This document shows positions 5,859 to 28,192 of a stretch of DNA of 64,000 nucleotides, piece by piece; the stretch's first letter is position 1; every line of letters starts with the position of its first letter. This stretch comes from Synergistaceae bacterium (GTDB lineage: Bacteria; Synergistota; Synergistia; Synergistales; Aminobacteriaceae). The position numbers and the translations under genes were made by a program. The stretch lies in the NCBI GenBank assembly GCA_018436595.1, contig JAHDLC010000006.1, forward strand, positions 1 to 64,000. The letters are read 5' to 3'. A model generated the notes under the pieces. It made no database searches and was not told the DNA's origin. It worked only from the letters and a program-made list of their open reading frames with translations.

Positions 5859-6563
5859 TCAGACCGTGGGGGCGTTGTAGATCAGGTACCCTGCCGCAAC
5901 GAGAAGAAGAAGGCCGCTGATCTTTCCGAGCCATGCGGCGGTTTTTCCGCCCCCGCCGGAGAAGAGGCGGGAAAAGGCGTCGGTGGCGCTTCCTGCGGCG
6001 ATGATCACCGTGCAGTGGCCGGCTCCGTAGGCCGCCACGAGCAGCAGGGCCCGGACGATGTCGGTGGCGGCGGTCTGTATGGCGAGGAAGATCACCGGGG
6101 CCGAGTAGGCGAAGCTGCACGGTCCGAGGGCCAGGCCGGAGAGGGTTCCTAGGGCGAGGGCACCCCGGTAGCCCGTGTGCTTCGTCGTCGGGCCGGATCC
6201 GCCCCTGAACCAGGGCATGTTGATCAGTCCGAGGAGGTGCAGGCCGAAGAGGACGAAGACGGCCGCCACGATGTAGTTCGTGTACCGGTCGATGCCGCCG
6301 AGGAAGACCCCGGCGGAGGTGAGCAGTCCCCCGAGGAAGGCGAGGTTGACGAACACGCCGAGGGAGAAGACCACGGAAATGCGGAAGGCCGACCAGAACG
6401 TGGTATTGTCCGAGTCGCTCACATACCCCACAACCAGCGGAATGGTTGCGATGCTGCAGGGACTGAGGGTCATTCCCAGTATTCCCCAGGCGTACAGGGC
6501 GGCGTATGCCGCCGCCCCGTCGCCGTGGAACACTCCGTAGAGAAAATCATACAATCCGCCCAT
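5859..6563 (-). CDS. CcdA-like thiol-disulfide transporter (cytochrome c biogenesis family)
   Basis: A 234-aa polytopic membrane protein with about six hydrophobic segments. Two conserved Pro-Cys sites lie in membrane helices: LSPCS (Cys36) and LGPCS (Cys149). These are the paired redox cysteines with which CcdA/DsbD-type proteins pass electrons from cytosolic thioredoxin to extracytoplasmic partners. The gene follows the thioredoxin-like gene by 9 bp on the minus strand, so that protein is the obvious redox partner outside the membrane. No cytochrome c maturation genes are near, so a general disulfide-reducing role is more likely than haem attachment. Confidence 0.9.
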   Translation of the reverse strand: MGGLYDFLYGVFHGDGAAAYAALYAWGILGMTLSPCSIATIPLVVGYVSDSDNTTFWSAFRISVVFSLGVFVNLAFLGGLLTSAGVFLGGIDRYTNYIVAAVFVLFGLHLLGLINMPWFRGGSGPTTKHTGYRGALALGTLSGLALGPCSFAYSAPVIFLAIQTAATDIVRALLLVAAYGAGHCTVIIAAGSATDAFSRLFSGGGGKTAAWLGKISGLLLLVAAGYLIYNAPTV

Positions 6564-6572
6564 GATACTGTG

Positions 6573-16323: not shown

Positions 16324-17550
16324 ATGTCGTCAGTTCTTGACCGCTTTTTGAAGTACGTACAGATACCCTCCCAGGCCGCCCACGGCAAAGATACCGTCCC
16401 CAGCACGCCGGGGCAGATGACCCTTGCCGTTGAGCTTGGAGAGGAACTGCGGGCCCTGGGCCTTTCCGACGTTGATGTGGACGAACACGCCTACGTCACG
16501 GCCACCCTTCCGGCCAACACGGACAGAAAAATCCCCGTCATCGCCTTCAACGCCCACCTGGACACGGCCCTGGAGGTCACCGACGACACGGTGCGCCCCC
16601 GGCTGGTGGAAAACTACGACGGCGGCGACATCGTCCTCAACGAAAAGGAGCGGGTGACGCTCTCTCCCTCCACCTTTCCCGACCTGCTGAAATACAGGGG
16701 AGAGACCCTGGTGGTCACCGACGGGACGACACTCCTCGGCGCCGATGACAAGGCGGGAATCGCCGAGATCATGGCGGCCCTGGAGTACATGACGAACCAT
16801 CCGGAGTTCATCCACGGCTGCGTGAAGGTGGCCTTCTCTCCCGACGAGGAGATCGGACACGGGGCGAGCCTGCTGGACCTGGAGAAGCTCGGCGCCGATT
16901 TCGCCTATACGGTGGACGGCGGGGAAGTGGGGGAGATCAGCTACGAGACCTTTAACGCCGCCCGGGCCAGGGTGACGGTCCACGGACGGAGCGTCCATCC
17001 CGGCAAGTCCAAGAACAAGATGGTGAACTCCATCCTCCTGGGCTTGGAGCTGGCCTCCATGTTCCCTGCCGACGAAACTCCGGCGACAACCGAGGAATAC
17101 GAAGGGTTCTTCCACCTCCTGGGCTTTTCCGGGAACGTGGAGACCACCACCATGGACTACATTATCAGGGACCATTCTTCGGAGAAGTTTTTGGCGAGAA
17201 AGAAGGCCGTGGAGGATGCCGTGGCGGCCCTGAACGGCCGGTACGGGGAAGGAACCGCGGAGCTGGACATGGCCGACCAGTACTACAACATGCTGGAGAA
17301 GGTCAAACCGCAGATGCACATCGTGGACACGGCTCTGGAGGCCATGAGGCAGCTCGGCATCGAGCCGAAGATCATCCCCGTCAGGGGTGGGACCGACGGA
17401 TCCCAGCTCAGCTACCGCGGGCTGCCGACACCGAACCTCTTTACCGGCGGGCACAATGCCCACGGGAAACACGAATTCATCTCCGTCTCCTCCATGGAGA
17501 AGGCTGTGGACCTGGTGCTGAAGATCGTGGAGCTCTACGCGGGGAAATAG
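16324..17550 (+). CDS. pepT: Tripeptide aminopeptidase (peptidase T, M20B)
   Basis: A 408-aa zinc aminopeptidase that releases the N-terminal residue of tripeptides. Seen are FNAHLDTALEV (~76-86), the long insertion typical of PepT, LLGADDKAGIAEI (~137-149), FSPDEEIGHGA (~171-181) and VRGGTDGSQLSYRG (~354). The length equals the family norm. AAAGGAG lies 11 nt before the ATG at 16324. It closes the peptide operon 16 bp after the M42 gene. The repeat cluster R3 begins about 30 bp after its stop. Confidence 0.96.
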   Translation: MSSVLDRFLKYVQIPSQAAHGKDTVPSTPGQMTLAVELGEELRALGLSDVDVDEHAYVTATLPANTDRKIPVIAFNAHLDTALEVTDDTVRPRLVENYDGGDIVLNEKERVTLSPSTFPDLLKYRGETLVVTDGTTLLGADDKAGIAEIMAALEYMTNHPEFIHGCVKVAFSPDEEIGHGASLLDLEKLGADFAYTVDGGEVGEISYETFNAARARVTVHGRSVHPGKSKNKMVNSILLGLELASMFPADETPATTEEYEGFFHLLGFSGNVETTTMDYIIRDHSSEKFLARKKAVEDAVAALNGRYGEGTAELDMADQYYNMLEKVKPQMHIVDTALEAMRQLGIEPKIIPVRGGTDGSQLSYRGLPTPNLFTGGHNAHGKHEFISVSSMEKAVDLVLKIVELYAGK

Positions 17551-17574
17551 GATCCGAAAAGAAACGCCCTCGGG

Positions 17575-17975
17575 ATGATGGCCTTTTTTTGTCATCCCGA
17601 GGCCTGCGCTCCGGCCGAAGGATCTCGGTTCTTTGTCATCCTGAGGAGCGTTTCCTGCGACGAAGGATCTCGGGGTTGATGCTGAAGGCCTAAGACCAGA
17701 TCCTTCGCTCCGCTCAGGATGACAAGCAAAAGCACTCCTTCGGAACGACAGGGCTAGGTTGTCATCCCGAGCGAATGCGAGGGATCTCGGGGTTGAGAAA
17801 CCCAGAGTCAAAAACGAGATCCCTCCTCGCTGCGCTCGTTCGGGATGACAAGCAAATGCGCTCCTCAGGATGACAAACCGCTGCAGGCCTCAGGGTGACA
17901 CTCCTTGTGTGTCATCCTGAGGCCGGGTTCATGGCCGATCGCGTCCCCGGAGGGGAGGGATCCCGCCCCTGGTTC
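17575..17975. repeat. Dispersed inverted-repeat cluster R3
   Basis: This gene-free gap between pepT and larB holds at least seven copies, in both orientations, of the GTCATCC(C/T)GAG / GATCC(C/T)TCG unit also found in R1 and R2. Both flanking genes converge on it (pepT from the left, larB from the right). Paired arms could act as transcript ends, but no U-run terminator is evident. Confidence 0.8.
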
Positions 17976-22454: not shown

Positions 22455-22486
22455 GCCCCCTTCGGAGGCAGAGCGGGAGAAAAATG

Positions 22487-22522
22487 AGTCCCGTTCCGGA
22501 CTTGCCGGAGCGGGACTTTTTT
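22487..22522. terminator. Convergent (bidirectional) terminator
   Basis: AGTCCCG..CCGG pairs with CCGG..CGGGACT around a short loop, with a T-run on the plus side (22518 onward) and an A-rich stretch on the left that gives a U-run on the minus strand. It separates the acyl-CoA synthetase gene (plus) from the tiny UGA-containing gene (minus). Confidence 0.8.
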
Positions 22523-22526
22523 CTTT

Positions 22527-22640
22527 TTACCGGAACATCCTGAACAGACGGGAAATGCCGGCGACGACCGCCGCCGCGATGAGCACGAGCAGTCAGGGAG
22601 GGCAGGCGAAACCCCTTCTTTTTTTCTCGTCATCGCTCAT
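22527..22640 (-). CDS. Tiny membrane protein, probable selenoprotein (CPPU motif, UGA at position 16)
   Basis: Read through its UGA, this ORF encodes 37 aa: a charged N terminus (MSDDEKKRRGFA), Cys13-Pro-Pro-U16, a hydrophobic helix (~17-29) and a basic tail (RLFRMFR). The UGA is at 22593-22595 and the stop is TAA. Support for a real gene: AGGGGGTGAT, a near-perfect match to the anti-SD, lies 5 nt before the ATG; TATAAT lies just upstream; a terminator lies just downstream; and a SECIS-like hairpin with loop GGUC follows the UGA. C-x-x-U is a standard redox motif. The family is not one I can name. It would sit in the inner membrane with its redox motif at the membrane face. Without selenocysteine insertion only a useless 15-mer would be made. 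Confidence 0.72.
22560..22575 (-). promoter_or_regulatory. SECIS-like hairpin downstream of UGA in the tiny membrane ORF
   Basis: The minus-strand mRNA reads GGCGGCGGUCGUCGCC: a 6-bp stem (GGCGGC with GUCGCC, one G-U) and tetraloop GGUC. The stem starts at +18 after the UGA and the loop GU is at +25/+26. GGUC is the same apical sequence as in the E. coli fdhF SECIS. The position equals that in the thioredoxin-like gene. Confidence 0.72.
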
Positions 22641-22661
22641 GGTTTATCACCCCCTGGGGGT

Positions 22662-22667
22662 ATTATA
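22662..22667 (-). promoter_or_regulatory. Candidate -10 box for the tiny UGA-containing gene
   Basis: A perfect TATAAT on the minus strand lies 21 bp upstream of the ATG at 22640, so the leader would be very short. No convincing -35 is visible about 17 bp further upstream. Confidence 0.4.
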
Positions 22668-22866
22668 ACAGAGAATATTCCGGAAAGCCGGATGGGGCTC
22701 CTCCTGCCTTCTGCAGGCCCGTTACCCGGAAATGCTCCCTTCCTGCGGAGCGCTTTCAGCCTTTGTCCGGCATCGCGGCACAACGGGGGAGTCCGTTCAG
22801 CAAATATATATGGTACAGTATGGATCTCTTCCGGATCAGTTTTTCGAAAGGACGTGGTTCTGCACC

Positions 22867-23352
22867 ATGACATGGTTCCTGTACCTCGCGGCGGGGGCGG
22901 CCCTCGCCGTGTCGGCGGCGGCAAGCAGGGAAAAGACGAAGAAGGCTCTGAACAAGGCCTGGAACAGCTTTCTGAACGTTCTTCCCGCCCTGGCGGCCAT
23001 GCTCTTCCTTGTCTCCATTTCCGTGGCGCTGCTTCCCGAACGGGTGATCGCCTCCCTCATCGGCGAGGAGAGCGGATTTTTCGGCCAGATTCTCGCTTCC
23101 GTCATCGGTTCCATAACCCTGATCCCGGCCTTTGTGGCCTTCCCCATGGCGAAGGTGCTTATGGAGCATGGAGCGGGGGCGGCCCAGATGGCCGTCTTCG
23201 CCTCGACCCTCATGATGGTGGGCGTTGCCACCGCTCCCCTCGAGGCCTCGTTCTTCGGGTGGAAGGCCACTCTCTTCCGCAACGGCATGGCCTATTTTTA
23301 TTCTTTTGCGGTGGGATACGTGGTCTGGCTGGCGGTGAAGGCATGGATGTGA
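22867..23352 (+). CDS. Permease half (first), COG0701-like
   Basis: A 161-aa membrane protein with about four to five hydrophobic segments. It looks like the first half of a permease of the ArsP/DUF318 (COG0701) type: NVLPALAAMLFLVSISVALL, then GSITLIPAFVAFPMA and TLMMVGVATAPLE. The next gene overlaps its end by 10 bp and appears to be the second half, so the two likely form one heterodimeric transporter. The substrate is unknown. The start is uncertain; ATG 22867 gives a sensible N terminus just before the first helix. Confidence 0.72.
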   Translation: MTWFLYLAAGAALAVSAAASREKTKKALNKAWNSFLNVLPALAAMLFLVSISVALLPERVIASLIGEESGFFGQILASVIGSITLIPAFVAFPMAKVLMEHGAGAAQMAVFASTLMMVGVATAPLEASFFGWKATLFRNGMAYFYSFAVGYVVWLAVKAWM

Positions 23353-23891
23353 GAAAAGCACTGAAGCGGTGGCGCACGGCGATGGCGTCCCTCTTCATAG
23401 CCGCCGTCCTCTCCGTCGCCTTTCCACGGGCCGGCAGGGAGGCCCTGTCCCTTCTCGGGATGAACGTGGGAACCATTCTCGGCATTCTTCCCCCGGTGTT
23501 TGTTCTCCTCGGGCTCTTTGACGCATGGGTTCCCCGGGAGAGGGTCGCCCCTCATCTCGGAGAGACTTCCGGCCTCAAGGGGGTTATCCTCGCGATCCTT
23601 CTCGGGGCAAGCTCCGCCGGTCCACTGTACATCGCCTTTCCCGTGGCGGAAGTTATGATCCGGAAGGGGACGAGCCTCAGGAACGCCTTTATATTCCTGG
23701 GCGCATGGTCCACCATGCGGGTTCCCATGATTCTCTTTGAAATTCAGAACCTGGGGGCGATATTTGCCCTTTCCCGGTACGGGGCCTCTCTCGCCGGCGT
23801 TCTTCTCATGGGGGCCTTCATGGAAAGGGTGCTCGGGCCGAAGGACAGGGAGGACATTCTGGCGCGCTTCGCGGAACACCGCGCGGGGTGA
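23343..23891 (+). CDS. Permease half (second), COG0701-like
   Basis: A 182-aa membrane protein with about four to five helices, sharing the layout of the preceding gene: NVGTILGILPPVFVLLGLFD, then AILLGASSAGPLYIAFPVAE and FIFLGAWSTMRVPMILFE. It starts within the last 10 bp of the upstream gene, which implies translational coupling. In related proteins such halves are fused into one chain of about 300-350 aa. The ligand is unknown. Confidence 0.75.
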   Translation: MDVRKALKRWRTAMASLFIAAVLSVAFPRAGREALSLLGMNVGTILGILPPVFVLLGLFDAWVPRERVAPHLGETSGLKGVILAILLGASSAGPLYIAFPVAEVMIRKGTSLRNAFIFLGAWSTMRVPMILFEIQNLGAIFALSRYGASLAGVLLMGAFMERVLGPKDREDILARFAEHRAG

Positions 23892-24004: not shown

Positions 24005-25132
24005 ATGGGAATTCTGAAGAAAGCAAACGTGTGGATCTGGATTATAGCTCTCGCCGCAGGACTGGGAGTCCTCGGGTACAAGGTCGTGATGCCTTCGGGC
24101 GCCCAGCAGAAGCCTCCTGCGCCCCCCGCGGGAATCACCGTTACCGTCTACGAGGTGCAGCCCCGGATCTGGGAGATCTGGAGGAGCTTTTACGGTACCG
24201 TCCGGTCGGCCCAGGTCCAGAGGGTGAACTCCAACACACGGGAAGTCATCGAGGATATCGCCGTGGAAGTGGGCGACCATGTGAAGAAGGGAGATATCCT
24301 CATTTCCCTCGCCAGCCAGAGCCAGGCGGCTGTCCTCAGCGCCCGGCAGGCGGCCTACGAGGATGCCAGGAGCCGCTACGAGAGTCTTCAGAAGCTGTAC
24401 AGGGCCGGAGGAACCTCGAAGCAGGAGCTTGACCGGGCCAACGTGCAGCTCAAGGACGAGTCCGCAAAGCTTCGGGATGCCCGGACCACCGTGTCCCGGA
24501 CGCAGATCCGGTCCGCCCTGAACGGCGTGGTGGTGCGGCGGTCCGCGGAAAAGGGGGAATTTGCCGAACCGGGGCGGGAACTTCTCGCCGTGGCCGACTT
24601 CGACCGCAGGGAAGTGGAGATGCTTGTTTCCCCGACGATCCGGGGTCTCATCATCCCGGGAATGGATGTCCTGGTCAAGGCTCCCTGGGGAGGGGAGACC
24701 ATGGGTAAAATTTTCCGAATGGACCCCGAGGCTGACGCCGCCACGGGATTCTTCCGGGCCATCGTCCGCCTGCCTGCCGAGTGCAGGCTGATTCCCGGGG
24801 ATTATGTCCGGATGGAGGTCCGGATGGTCCGCCGGGAAAATACCATTGCGGTGCCCTATGAGTCAATCCTCCGTGAGGACGGAAACCCCTTCGTCTTCGT
24901 TGTTTCCGGTGAGGGGGCTTCCAAAAGGCCCATCGTCACCGGCGAGGGGAGCGGAGGGTACGTGGAGGTTTCCGAAGGGCTCTCCCCGGGCGAAAAGGTC
25001 GTGAAGACCGGAGCGGGCAGCCTGTACGACGGGGCCCGCCTGATCATCTCCAACGGAATGCTGAAAAAGCCGGAACAGGACTCCGGGACGGCCGGCAGGG
25101 CCGCAAGCGCCGACCTCCCCGGGGGAAAATAG
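24005..25132 (+). CDS. RND efflux periplasmic adaptor subunit (HlyD/MFP)
   Basis: A 375-aa membrane-fusion protein. An N-terminal anchor helix (~8-28) is followed by a barrel-sandwich half (VEVGDHVKKGDILISL, ~85-100), a coiled-coil hairpin (AYEDARSRYESLQKLYRAGG) and the other lipoyl half (SALNGVVVRRSAEKGEF). A beta-barrel domain and a membrane-proximal domain come last. It links the inner-membrane pump encoded 3 bp downstream to an outer-membrane channel. No TolC-type gene is in the window, so that partner is elsewhere. Confidence 0.94.
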   Translation: MGILKKANVWIWIIALAAGLGVLGYKVVMPSGAQQKPPAPPAGITVTVYEVQPRIWEIWRSFYGTVRSAQVQRVNSNTREVIEDIAVEVGDHVKKGDILISLASQSQAAVLSARQAAYEDARSRYESLQKLYRAGGTSKQELDRANVQLKDESAKLRDARTTVSRTQIRSALNGVVVRRSAEKGEFAEPGRELLAVADFDRREVEMLVSPTIRGLIIPGMDVLVKAPWGGETMGKIFRMDPEADAATGFFRAIVRLPAECRLIPGDYVRMEVRMVRRENTIAVPYESILREDGNPFVFVVSGEGASKRPIVTGEGSGGYVEVSEGLSPGEKVVKTGAGSLYDGARLIISNGMLKKPEQDSGTAGRAASADLPGGK

Positions 25133-25135
25133 TCC

Positions 25136-28100
25136 ATGAACCTGATCAGCATCTCCATCCGGCGTCCCGTGCTGACGCTGGTCATCGTCATTCTTTTCGT
25201 GCTTCTGGGTCTCTCGGGAATGAAGGGAATGGGAGTGGCCCTGCTGCCCCAGATCGAGGTCCCCTTCGTTTCCGTGCGTACAGAGTACGAGGGGGCCGGT
25301 CCCGAGGACATCGAAACCCTGGTGTCCAAGCCCATAGAGGACGCCATCAGCCAGATCCAGGGGGTCCGGCGCATCGAGAGCACGTCCCTTGAGGGAATGT
25401 CCTATGTTTTCGTCGAGTTCGATACGGACGTGAACCTGGCCGACGCGGCCCTGGACGTGGCCAACCGCGTCCGGACGGTCAACCTCCCGGAGGACGCGGA
25501 GGATCCGGTGGTACGGAAGTTCGACATCAACGCCCGCTCCTTCATGGGGATCGTCTTCACGTCCACCCTTCCGCCCCAGAGGGCGAAGGACATCCTGGAA
25601 GACAGGGTGCAGATGCAGCTCTCCCAGGTGGTGGACGTGGCGGAGGTTTCCCTCTACGGAGGACTCACCCGGGAGATCCAGGTGGAGCTCGACCCGGTGG
25701 CCCTGGGAAGTCTCGGCCTGAGCATCCGCCAGGTGACGAACATCGTGAAGAGCGGTAACTACAGTTCCCCTTCGGGGCGCATCTCCCTCGGCGACCAGGA
25801 GTCCATTCTGCGGGTCGTTGGTGAATCCTCCACCATCCGGGAGCTGGAGGAACTCCAGATTCCCCTCTCCGGAGGAGTTTCAGTCCGGCTGGCGGACATC
25901 GCCGCCATCACCGACGGAACGGCGGAGCTGCGCCGGATCGCCCGGTACATGGGAAAGGACTCCTTTATCCTGACCCTGAGAGCCATTCCCGACGGGAACG
26001 TGGTTCAGGCCAGCAGGGGGGTCAGGGAAATGCTTGACCGGATTGTTCCCACCCTGCCTCCGGGATTCACCATGTCCATCCCCTTCGACGACGGGGAATT
26101 CATCGCCGATTCCATCTGGAATGTGTTCCGGGACATGATTACGGGCACGGCCCTTACGGCCCTCATCCTGTTCCTGTTCCTCCAGAGGCTTTCCGTGACG
26201 CTCCTCGTGGCCATCGTGATGCCGACGGCAATCATCGCCACCTTCATGCCCATGGTCCTCGCGGACTACACCCTGAACATGATGACCACCCTCGGCCTGG
26301 CCATCTCCACGGGGGTGCTGGTGAACAATTCCATCCTGGTCATCGAGAACATCATCCGCTACAAGGAGATGGGGTACCACCCCATCGAAGCGGCCGAACG
26401 GGGCACGAAGGAAATCGCCATCGCCGTCCTCTCCACCACGGCCACGAACCTCGGGGTCTTCGTGCCCGTGGCCCTGTCGGGAGGACGCATGGGGCAGATG
26501 TTCAACCCCTTCGCCATGACGGTGGTCTTTTCCACCCTGTTCTCCCTCTGGGTGGCCCTGACCTTCACCCCCATGCTGGCTGCCCGCATCGGCAGCTCTT
26601 CGGGGCCGTCGAAGCTCAGCCGTTTTCTCACGGGGTGGTGGCAGTGGCTCTACAACGGTTTTGACGACCTCCACCATGTCCTGGTGAAGACCGCCGTGGG
26701 CCATCCTTTCCTGGCAGTCCTGCTCTTCGGAGGCCTGACGGCAGGCTCCGTGATGATCATGGACCGCATCGGCTTCCAGTTCTTCCCCTCCTCCGACGAA
26801 GGACAGATTTCCATCTCCATGGAAACCTCGGCCTCGGCCTCCCTCTCCATGACCGACCGCCTGGTGCGGCAGATCGAGGGGCACATCCTCGAACTCCCCC
26901 ACGTGAAGGGCGTGGACGTGGTCATCGGGGGCAGCGGCTCCCAGTCGGGGCTGAACCGGGCCACCGTGCGGATTTACCTGGAGGATGACCCGAAGAGGCC
27001 CTCTTCATTTGCCTTTGCCGCCCCCCTCCGGCCCCTCCTGGCGTCGCTGCCGGACATGAAGTCGAGCGTCACGGCGGGAGGGGGACGGGGCGGCGTCCGG
27101 GGCAAGCCCATCCAGGTGGTTGTCCGGGGCGACGAGGTGGACGTGCTGAACGACGTGGCCATGAAGGTCATGACCATGCTTCGCGGCGTGGACGGCGTGG
27201 TGGACGTGGACCTCGACTGGCGGACGGGCAGGCCGGAGATCCAGATGATTCCCGACAGACTCCGCATGGGGCGGCTCAATTTCAGTTCCGAGAACCTTTC
27301 GGATCTTCTGAGAGGGTACGTGACCGGCCTCAGGGCAGGGGTCTTCCGCGAGGGCGGCAAGGAATACGATATCCTCGTGAAGCTCAAATCGGAGGAAGTC
27401 TCCAGCCCCTTCCAGCTTCCCGACCTTCCCTTTCCCACCTCGGCCGGCTTTGTTTCCCTGCAGGATCTGGCGGACCTGAAAGAGACCATGGGACCCACCC
27501 AGATTCTCCGGAAGGACCGGCAGCGGTCCATTACCGTGGATGCCAACGTCTCCGGTACGACCGTGGGAGAAGCATACCAGGTTATCGACAGCAAACTGAA
27601 GGAGATTCCTCTTCCCCCGGGATACCGGTTTACCTATGCGGGAGAAATCCAGTCCATCCAGGATAATTTCGGGGCGCTGGGCTTTGCCCTCGGGCTGGCG
27701 GTACTTCTGACATTCCTCCTCATCGCGGCCATCCTCGAATCCTTCGTTTTCGCCTTCGTGATCATGCTGACCGTCCCTCTCTCCATCATCGGAGTGGTGC
27801 CGGCCCTCATCCTGACGAACACCCCCATGTCCATCTACGGCCTCATGGGCGTGATCATGCTCGTGGGGCTGGTGGTGAACAACGCCATCGTCATCATCGA
27901 CTACGCCGAAATCGTCAGGAAAGAGGGGATGGATCCCGCCGAAGCCATCATCGAGGCGTGCAGGGTCAGACTCCGGCCGATTCTCATGGCGGACGCCACG
28001 TCCGTCATCGCCATGGTCCCCCTTGCCATGGGCGTCGGGGCCGGAGGATCCTACAGGTCTCCCATGGCCATCGTTTCCATCGGCGGGCTCGTGGCGGGCG

Positions 28101-28192
28101 GCGTTCTTGCCCTTCTGGCCATTCCCCCAGTGTACAAGCTGGTCTGGAGACTGAAGCAGCGCTTCGGCTTCGAGGCGGTGGAGCAGCCATGA
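25136..28192 (+). CDS. RND efflux transporter permease (AcrB-like) with Asn in the proton-relay sites
   Basis: A 1018-aa pump with the standard two repeats of six helices and two large periplasmic loops. RRPVLTLVIVILFVLLGLSG forms TM1. The helix 4 motif reads GVLVNNSILVIEN (Asn397-Asn398), where AcrB-type pumps carry Asp407-Asp408. The helix 10 motif reads GLVVNNAIVIIDY (Asn915), where AcrB has Lys940. The helix 11 Arg is kept in RLRPILMADA. The proton relay is thus replaced by neutral residues, so the coupling mechanism may differ. It overlaps the radical SAM gene downstream by ATGA. The transported substrate is not deducible. Confidence 0.93.
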   Translation: MNLISISIRRPVLTLVIVILFVLLGLSGMKGMGVALLPQIEVPFVSVRTEYEGAGPEDIETLVSKPIEDAISQIQGVRRIESTSLEGMSYVFVEFDTDVNLADAALDVANRVRTVNLPEDAEDPVVRKFDINARSFMGIVFTSTLPPQRAKDILEDRVQMQLSQVVDVAEVSLYGGLTREIQVELDPVALGSLGLSIRQVTNIVKSGNYSSPSGRISLGDQESILRVVGESSTIRELEELQIPLSGGVSVRLADIAAITDGTAELRRIARYMGKDSFILTLRAIPDGNVVQASRGVREMLDRIVPTLPPGFTMSIPFDDGEFIADSIWNVFRDMITGTALTALILFLFLQRLSVTLLVAIVMPTAIIATFMPMVLADYTLNMMTTLGLAISTGVLVNNSILVIENIIRYKEMGYHPIEAAERGTKEIAIAVLSTTATNLGVFVPVALSGGRMGQMFNPFAMTVVFSTLFSLWVALTFTPMLAARIGSSSGPSKLSRFLTGWWQWLYNGFDDLHHVLVKTAVGHPFLAVLLFGGLTAGSVMIMDRIGFQFFPSSDEGQISISMETSASASLSMTDRLVRQIEGHILELPHVKGVDVVIGGSGSQSGLNRATVRIYLEDDPKRPSSFAFAAPLRPLLASLPDMKSSVTAGGGRGGVRGKPIQVVVRGDEVDVLNDVAMKVMTMLRGVDGVVDVDLDWRTGRPEIQMIPDRLRMGRLNFSSENLSDLLRGYVTGLRAGVFREGGKEYDILVKLKSEEVSSPFQLPDLPFPTSAGFVSLQDLADLKETMGPTQILRKDRQRSITVDANVSGTTVGEAYQVIDSKLKEIPLPPGYRFTYAGEIQSIQDNFGALGFALGLAVLLTFLLIAAILESFVFAFVIMLTVPLSIIGVVPALILTNTPMSIYGLMGVIMLVGLVVNNAIVIIDYAEIVRKEGMDPAEAIIEACRVRLRPILMADATSVIAMVPLAMGVGAGGSYRSPMAIVSIGGLVAGGVLALLAIPPVYKLVWRLKQRFGFEAVEQP

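Follow-up and report, generated by a model that had tools for sequence, protein, structure and literature searches.

Predicted mini-selenoproteins of Synergistota with a Cys-Pro-Pro-Sec motif capping a lone transmembrane helix

Several bacterial selenoproteins carry a CxxU motif, among them the SelW-like and AhpD-like proteins, the CC/Se motif family NF041239 and DUF1858. They share with the gene described here an in-frame UGA, a downstream bSECIS and a Cys-x-x-Sec redox motif, but they are covered by Pfam or NCBIfam models, none of which matches a single-helix mini protein of 34-49 residues. The Tso set (TsoA/B/C/X/Y; NF045695, NF045694, NF045708, NF045809 and NF047643) also consists of unusual bacterial selenoproteins, in a system that includes a TsoB/DsbD-type transporter and the ArsR-type regulator TsoR. 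Its motifs (LULAxC, UxxxxU, GxxU, UxxC and UxxV) differ from CPPU, and the mini protein gave no match to the Tso models at E<=10. The selenoprotein arsenite methyltransferases (NF008823, NF041536 and NF041537) likewise bring selenium and arsenic genes into one setting, but there the Sec lies inside the enzyme, whereas here it would lie in a separate mini membrane protein encoded beside ArsM. In eukaryotes, SELENOK and SELENOS are small single-pass membrane selenoproteins, as the mini protein is predicted to be; they differ in being larger, with Sec near the C-terminus and the SECIS in the 3' UTR, and we claim no sequence relation to them.

No Pfam or NCBIfam model matches the mini protein, and no entry resembling it stands among the 119 selenoprotein families in Table 1 of a 2026 review. 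An earlier sequence-only reading of this DNA had put the ORF forward as a candidate for a new family of small selenoproteins, in which CPPU is combined with a single hydrophobic helix and a basic tail, and had known no named family of such architecture. Both proposals are supported, the first by 25 UGA-bearing homologues and the second by these searches. Judged from its sequence, the CPPU mini protein is a new, unnamed selenoprotein family in Synergistota. Synergistetes were flagged as selenoprotein-rich in 2016, and a CPPU family is not named in the passages of that report consulted here (PMC5029168). A literature search limited to open-licence papers found nothing joining 'selenoprotein' with CPPU, and an unseen report remains possible.

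The window, the whole stretch of 64,000 nucleotides that was analysed, comes from a Synergistaceae genome (G000 in our labelling) and carries the mini gene on its minus strand, running from 22640 to 22527. The gene has 37 codons and a TAA stop, with the translation MSDDEKKRRGFACPPULLVLIAAAVVAGISRLFRMFR. The earlier reading had these coordinates right but gave no strand; the plus strand of 22527-22640 was rejected, as its translation is meaningless. The sole in-frame UGA is codon 16 (TGA, 22593-22595, minus strand) and stands three codons after a cysteine codon, as had been claimed, closing the Cys-Pro-Pro-Sec codons TGC CCT CCC TGA at 22593..22604. Codons for residues 17-36, which hydropathy and AlphaFold2 assign to the transmembrane helix and basic end, occupy 22533..22592. 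If the UGA acted as a stop, translation would yield only 15 residues.

The expression signals reported earlier were all located. The Shine-Dalgarno sequence AGGGGGTGA (22647..22655, minus strand) sits 6 nt upstream of the ATG and is kept in eight of the nine members of the window's clade. The TATAAT is part of an extended -10 promoter element, TGTTATAAT (TGtTATAAT; 22662..22670, minus strand), found as TGnTAYAAT in all nine. No good -35 element was found upstream of the gene, and the position of the extended -10 suggests a 5' UTR of only ~15 nt. This promoter/Shine-Dalgarno block is unique within the window. A GC-rich hairpin followed by T's (22486..22518) lies 3' of the gene and resembles a bidirectional intrinsic terminator, common to the mini gene and a convergent acyl-CoA synthetase gene. 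Post-stop hairpins occur in most members of the clade.

When 60 relatives were searched directly, six more ORFs, each interrupted by a single TGA, came up at E<=4.4e-7. With profiles, 188 Synergistota genomes yielded 25 homologues (E<=6e-7) from about eleven genera, with E-values reaching 2e-22 and a clear gap before noise at E=3e-3. A single in-frame TGA immediately 3' of the Cys-Pro-Pro codons is present in every one of the 25, and none has TAA, TAG, TGG or a Cys codon at that position. Nor did the two profile searches of these 188 genomes find any significant Cys homologue, so the CPPC relatives that had been anticipated did not appear. Family members are 34-49 residues long. Across 24 aligned members the C, P, P and U of the motif never vary, nor does one Ala, and a Gly ahead of the motif is almost invariant. 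The sequences fall into four sub-groups: GF(A/V)CPPU, the form of the window's family; GGCPPU, that of most of family f4; GFCPPU (G050 and G171); and a form belonging to genus g5 (G008 and G035).

A DNA-pattern scan of GTDB (257 Gb, 85,000 species) gave ten matches in Synergistota and five elsewhere. We read the five as chance, as none has a hydrophobic helix after the motif; three of the five genomes gave no significant profile match, and no mini gene was found in 379 genomes of the phylum of the Spirochaeta match. The real matches thus read as restricted to Synergistota. The pattern's sensitivity is only partial (ten Synergistota matches against 25 known members), so rare members outside the phylum are not excluded.

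Both sides of the UGA are, on comparative sequence evidence, under coding constraint. Loss of the frame in relatives, or the absence of a bias to synonymous change, had been named beforehand as grounds for refutation; the frame is conserved on both sides across taxonomic families, and pN/pS before and after the UGA is 0.35 and 0.46 in the window's family and 0.27 and 0.36 in family f4. Between G000 and its congener G001 the ORF is 86% identical, the promoter/Shine-Dalgarno block 100% and the flanks 50-53%, and conservation stops at the ORF borders.

The GGUC-loop hairpin described after the UGA was also recovered. It lies at 22559..22576 (minus strand), with a 7-bp stem pairing 22576-22570 with 22565-22559 and the apical loop at 22569-22566. 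In the window copy the hairpin starts 16 nt past the UGA and the loop follows after 23 nt, with an MFE of -12.8 kcal/mol; in 24 of 25 minimum-energy folds the apical loop starts 22-23 nt past the UGA. The 24 distinct sequences have mostly GGUC (12), GGGC (4) or AGUU (4) loops, and 89.3% of their pair cells form. Four of the seven pairs show 11 double-sided changes between them, a level of covariation reached in none of 500 shuffles, and the hairpin scores above all slid versions of itself for both cells paired and covariation. As the region also encodes protein, a second null was used in which each sequence was recoded by drawing synonymous codons at random according to local usage: 150 of 168 pairs were observed against 124.8±3.5 expected, and none of 2000 recodings was as high. 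Both tests are inflated by shared ancestry, since related sequences are treated as partly independent. Published bSECIS criteria are a stem of 4-16 bp, a loop of 3-9 nt, a G in the first two loop positions, a spacing of 16-37 nt and an MFE <= -7.5 (PMC13188914). The window copy satisfies all of them, as do most other members. The exceptions are G137, G136 and G035 on energy (the -7.5 kcal/mol limit), the fold of G137 also being different, and G008 on the loop, which has no G in its first two positions.

All members examined have one hydrophobic stretch after the Sec, with a maximum 17-residue hydropathy of 1.9-2.9. AlphaFold2, run on the family alignment with Cys replacing Sec, gave one helix over residues 16-36 at a pLDDT of about 90. 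Its predicted start at residue 16 suggests that CPPU caps the helix. The mini protein fulfils the criterion of a lone hydrophobic helix some 17-20 residues long and is thus predicted to be a single-pass membrane protein, with insertion inferred and topology inferred from charge. The CxxC of thioredoxin caps a helix, and the CPPU geometry is similar, by analogy only.

The window's genome encodes SelA, SelB, a Sec-type SelD and tRNA-Sec, all over curated cut-offs. Of the 25 mini-gene carriers 22 have a detected tRNA-Sec, as against 101 of 163 non-carriers (p=0.007, without correction for phylogeny). Two of the three carriers without it are ~66% complete assemblies, and the third, G012, is 97% complete and has SelB. 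G003, of the window's genus, has no tRNA-Sec above cut-off; it keeps the permease described below, with no mini gene beside it. A single in-frame TGA also interrupts the SelD gene of G000 (G000:C6:78526-79461, L134), whose product is probably itself a selenoprotein. In G050 (G050:C21:24719-25670) the tRNA-Sec gene is followed ~770 bp downstream by the mini gene, which, judged by eye, just precedes mraZ/mraW-like genes.

It is very probable that the mini gene is a real gene whose UGA is decoded as Sec, although this is inferred from sequence, with no transcript, peptide or 75Se evidence. The UGA after Cys-Pro-Pro would be read by SelB and tRNA-Sec, aided by the hairpin directly downstream. That an ORF of only 37 codons arose by chance, or is a decayed gene, is refuted by its conservation across 25 homologues with E-values to 2e-22, together with the conserved promoter, Shine-Dalgarno and frame and the coding constraint; we give it practically no weight. 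Of the stop codons, UGA is the one most prone to leak, and an ordinary tRNA (Trp or other) might read through it without selenium. This is highly improbable, as the UGA is strictly kept and never replaced by TGG, TGY, TAA or TAG, stands in a CxxU context and is followed at a fixed distance by a covarying SECIS-type hairpin. Moreover, the G171 and G035 members use TGA as their terminal stop as well, so UGA is not globally reassigned in these genomes and its decoding depends on context.

The ORF might instead be a selenium-sensing leader peptide, in which decoding or non-decoding of the UGA ties translation of the following gene to selenium status. In family f4 a DUF308 gene begins 0-16 nt past the mini gene stop, and in G140 (L081) and G147 (L078) its ATG directly abuts that stop, so that translation of DUF308 may depend on read-through of the Sec codon. 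In the window's family, however, a terminator-like hairpin of its own closes most copies of the mini gene and no constant partner lies downstream, which makes a general leader unlikely, and lineages with different neighbours preserve the amino-acid sequence encoded past the UGA. We consider the leader reading very unlikely.

In the window's family the mini gene is divergent from a split ArsP_1-like permease, a membrane-fusion protein and an RND pump. The permease halves are adjacent half-size ORFs on the plus strand (22867-23891), ~27-34% identical to each other. The first (22867..23352) matches PF03773 at E=6e-7, below the curated cut-off, and the second (23346..23891) at 43.0 bits against a cut-off of 32.3; NCBIfam gives neither a name. 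The HlyD-type membrane-fusion protein (24005-25132) and RND efflux pump (25136-28192), also on the plus strand, lie near the mini gene in seven of nine members of the clade. ArsM (NF008823, with representatives over the curated cut-off) adjoins the mini gene on the same strand, upstream in G012, G028, G073 and G074 and downstream in G021, while in G001 it comes after ArsR, both following the mini gene. ArsR and an ArsN2 domain are also among the neighbours in this family. The mini genes of G036 and G000 have no adjacent ArsM, the ArsM gene of G000 being on another contig.

Family f4 has a conserved Ptb-Buk-mini-DUF308 run (L077, L079 and others; Ptb and Buk named by eye). Most f4 loci also have a convergent DsbD_TM gene and a TlpA/ResA-like WCPPC thioredoxin nearby, a second thiol-redox setting.

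In the predicted product a short basic N-terminus leads to C-P-P-U, which caps the single transmembrane helix, and a short basic tail ends the chain. In the most likely mode of action, the helix would keep the Cys-x-x-Sec pair at the face of the membrane as a membrane-bound selenol/thiol couple that could reduce neighbouring membrane proteins, or bind soft metalloids for them. Candidate partners are the ArsP-like permease and RND pump with the arsenic-methylation genes in the window's lineage, and the DUF308 membrane protein in another. This membrane selenol redox or metalloid role is inferred, and remains a possibility rather than an expectation. We suggest, tentatively, that CPPU with its helix is a stand-alone module, in effect a minimal peptide for selenol redox chemistry or metalloid binding, adopted as a partner by different membrane transport and detoxification systems.

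A narrower reading would make the protein arsenic-specific: part of an arsenic/organoarsenic resistance island, it would exchange As(III) or methylated arsenic with ArsM and the ArsP-like permease, or keep ArsM reduced. Besides the adjacency of ArsM in five members and the ars genes around them, ArsM is present in all five mini-bearing genera of the window's family against 4 of 15 others (p=0.008, uncorrected for phylogeny), and G003, without a mini gene, still has the permease and ArsM on one contig. Against it, the mini genes of G036 and G000 stand apart from ArsM, the permease halves are unnamed by NCBIfam, and no ArsM was found in the mini-bearing genera of families f4 and f6. The ars linkage seen in the window's family is thus absent from f4, whose carriers show that arsenic cannot be the general function; a universal arsenic role was rejected, and the arsenic-specific reading as a whole is doubtful.

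The selenoproteome would gain a family of 34-49 residues in which Cys-x-x-Sec caps a lone transmembrane helix and which is always Sec, never Cys. Standard annotation misses such genes twice, as they are too short and are interrupted by UGA, even in a selenoprotein-rich phylum. Cultured species, including Aminobacterium colombiense, appear to carry the mini gene, so selenium incorporation and an arsenic or thiol role are directly testable.

Several Synergistota ArsM genes contain an in-frame TGA (G009, G014, G016, G017, G032, G142, G143 and others), some with a further stop; these are probably Sec-type ArsM. Elsewhere in the window, a frame with a CHPERSEG-type peptide at ~16333-17814 (minus strand) looks like a translated intergenic DNA repeat and not a protein. 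An ORF at 5862-6566 (minus strand) with LSPCSIATIPLVVGYVSD has, judged by eye only, the look of a CcdA/DsbD-type thiol transporter.
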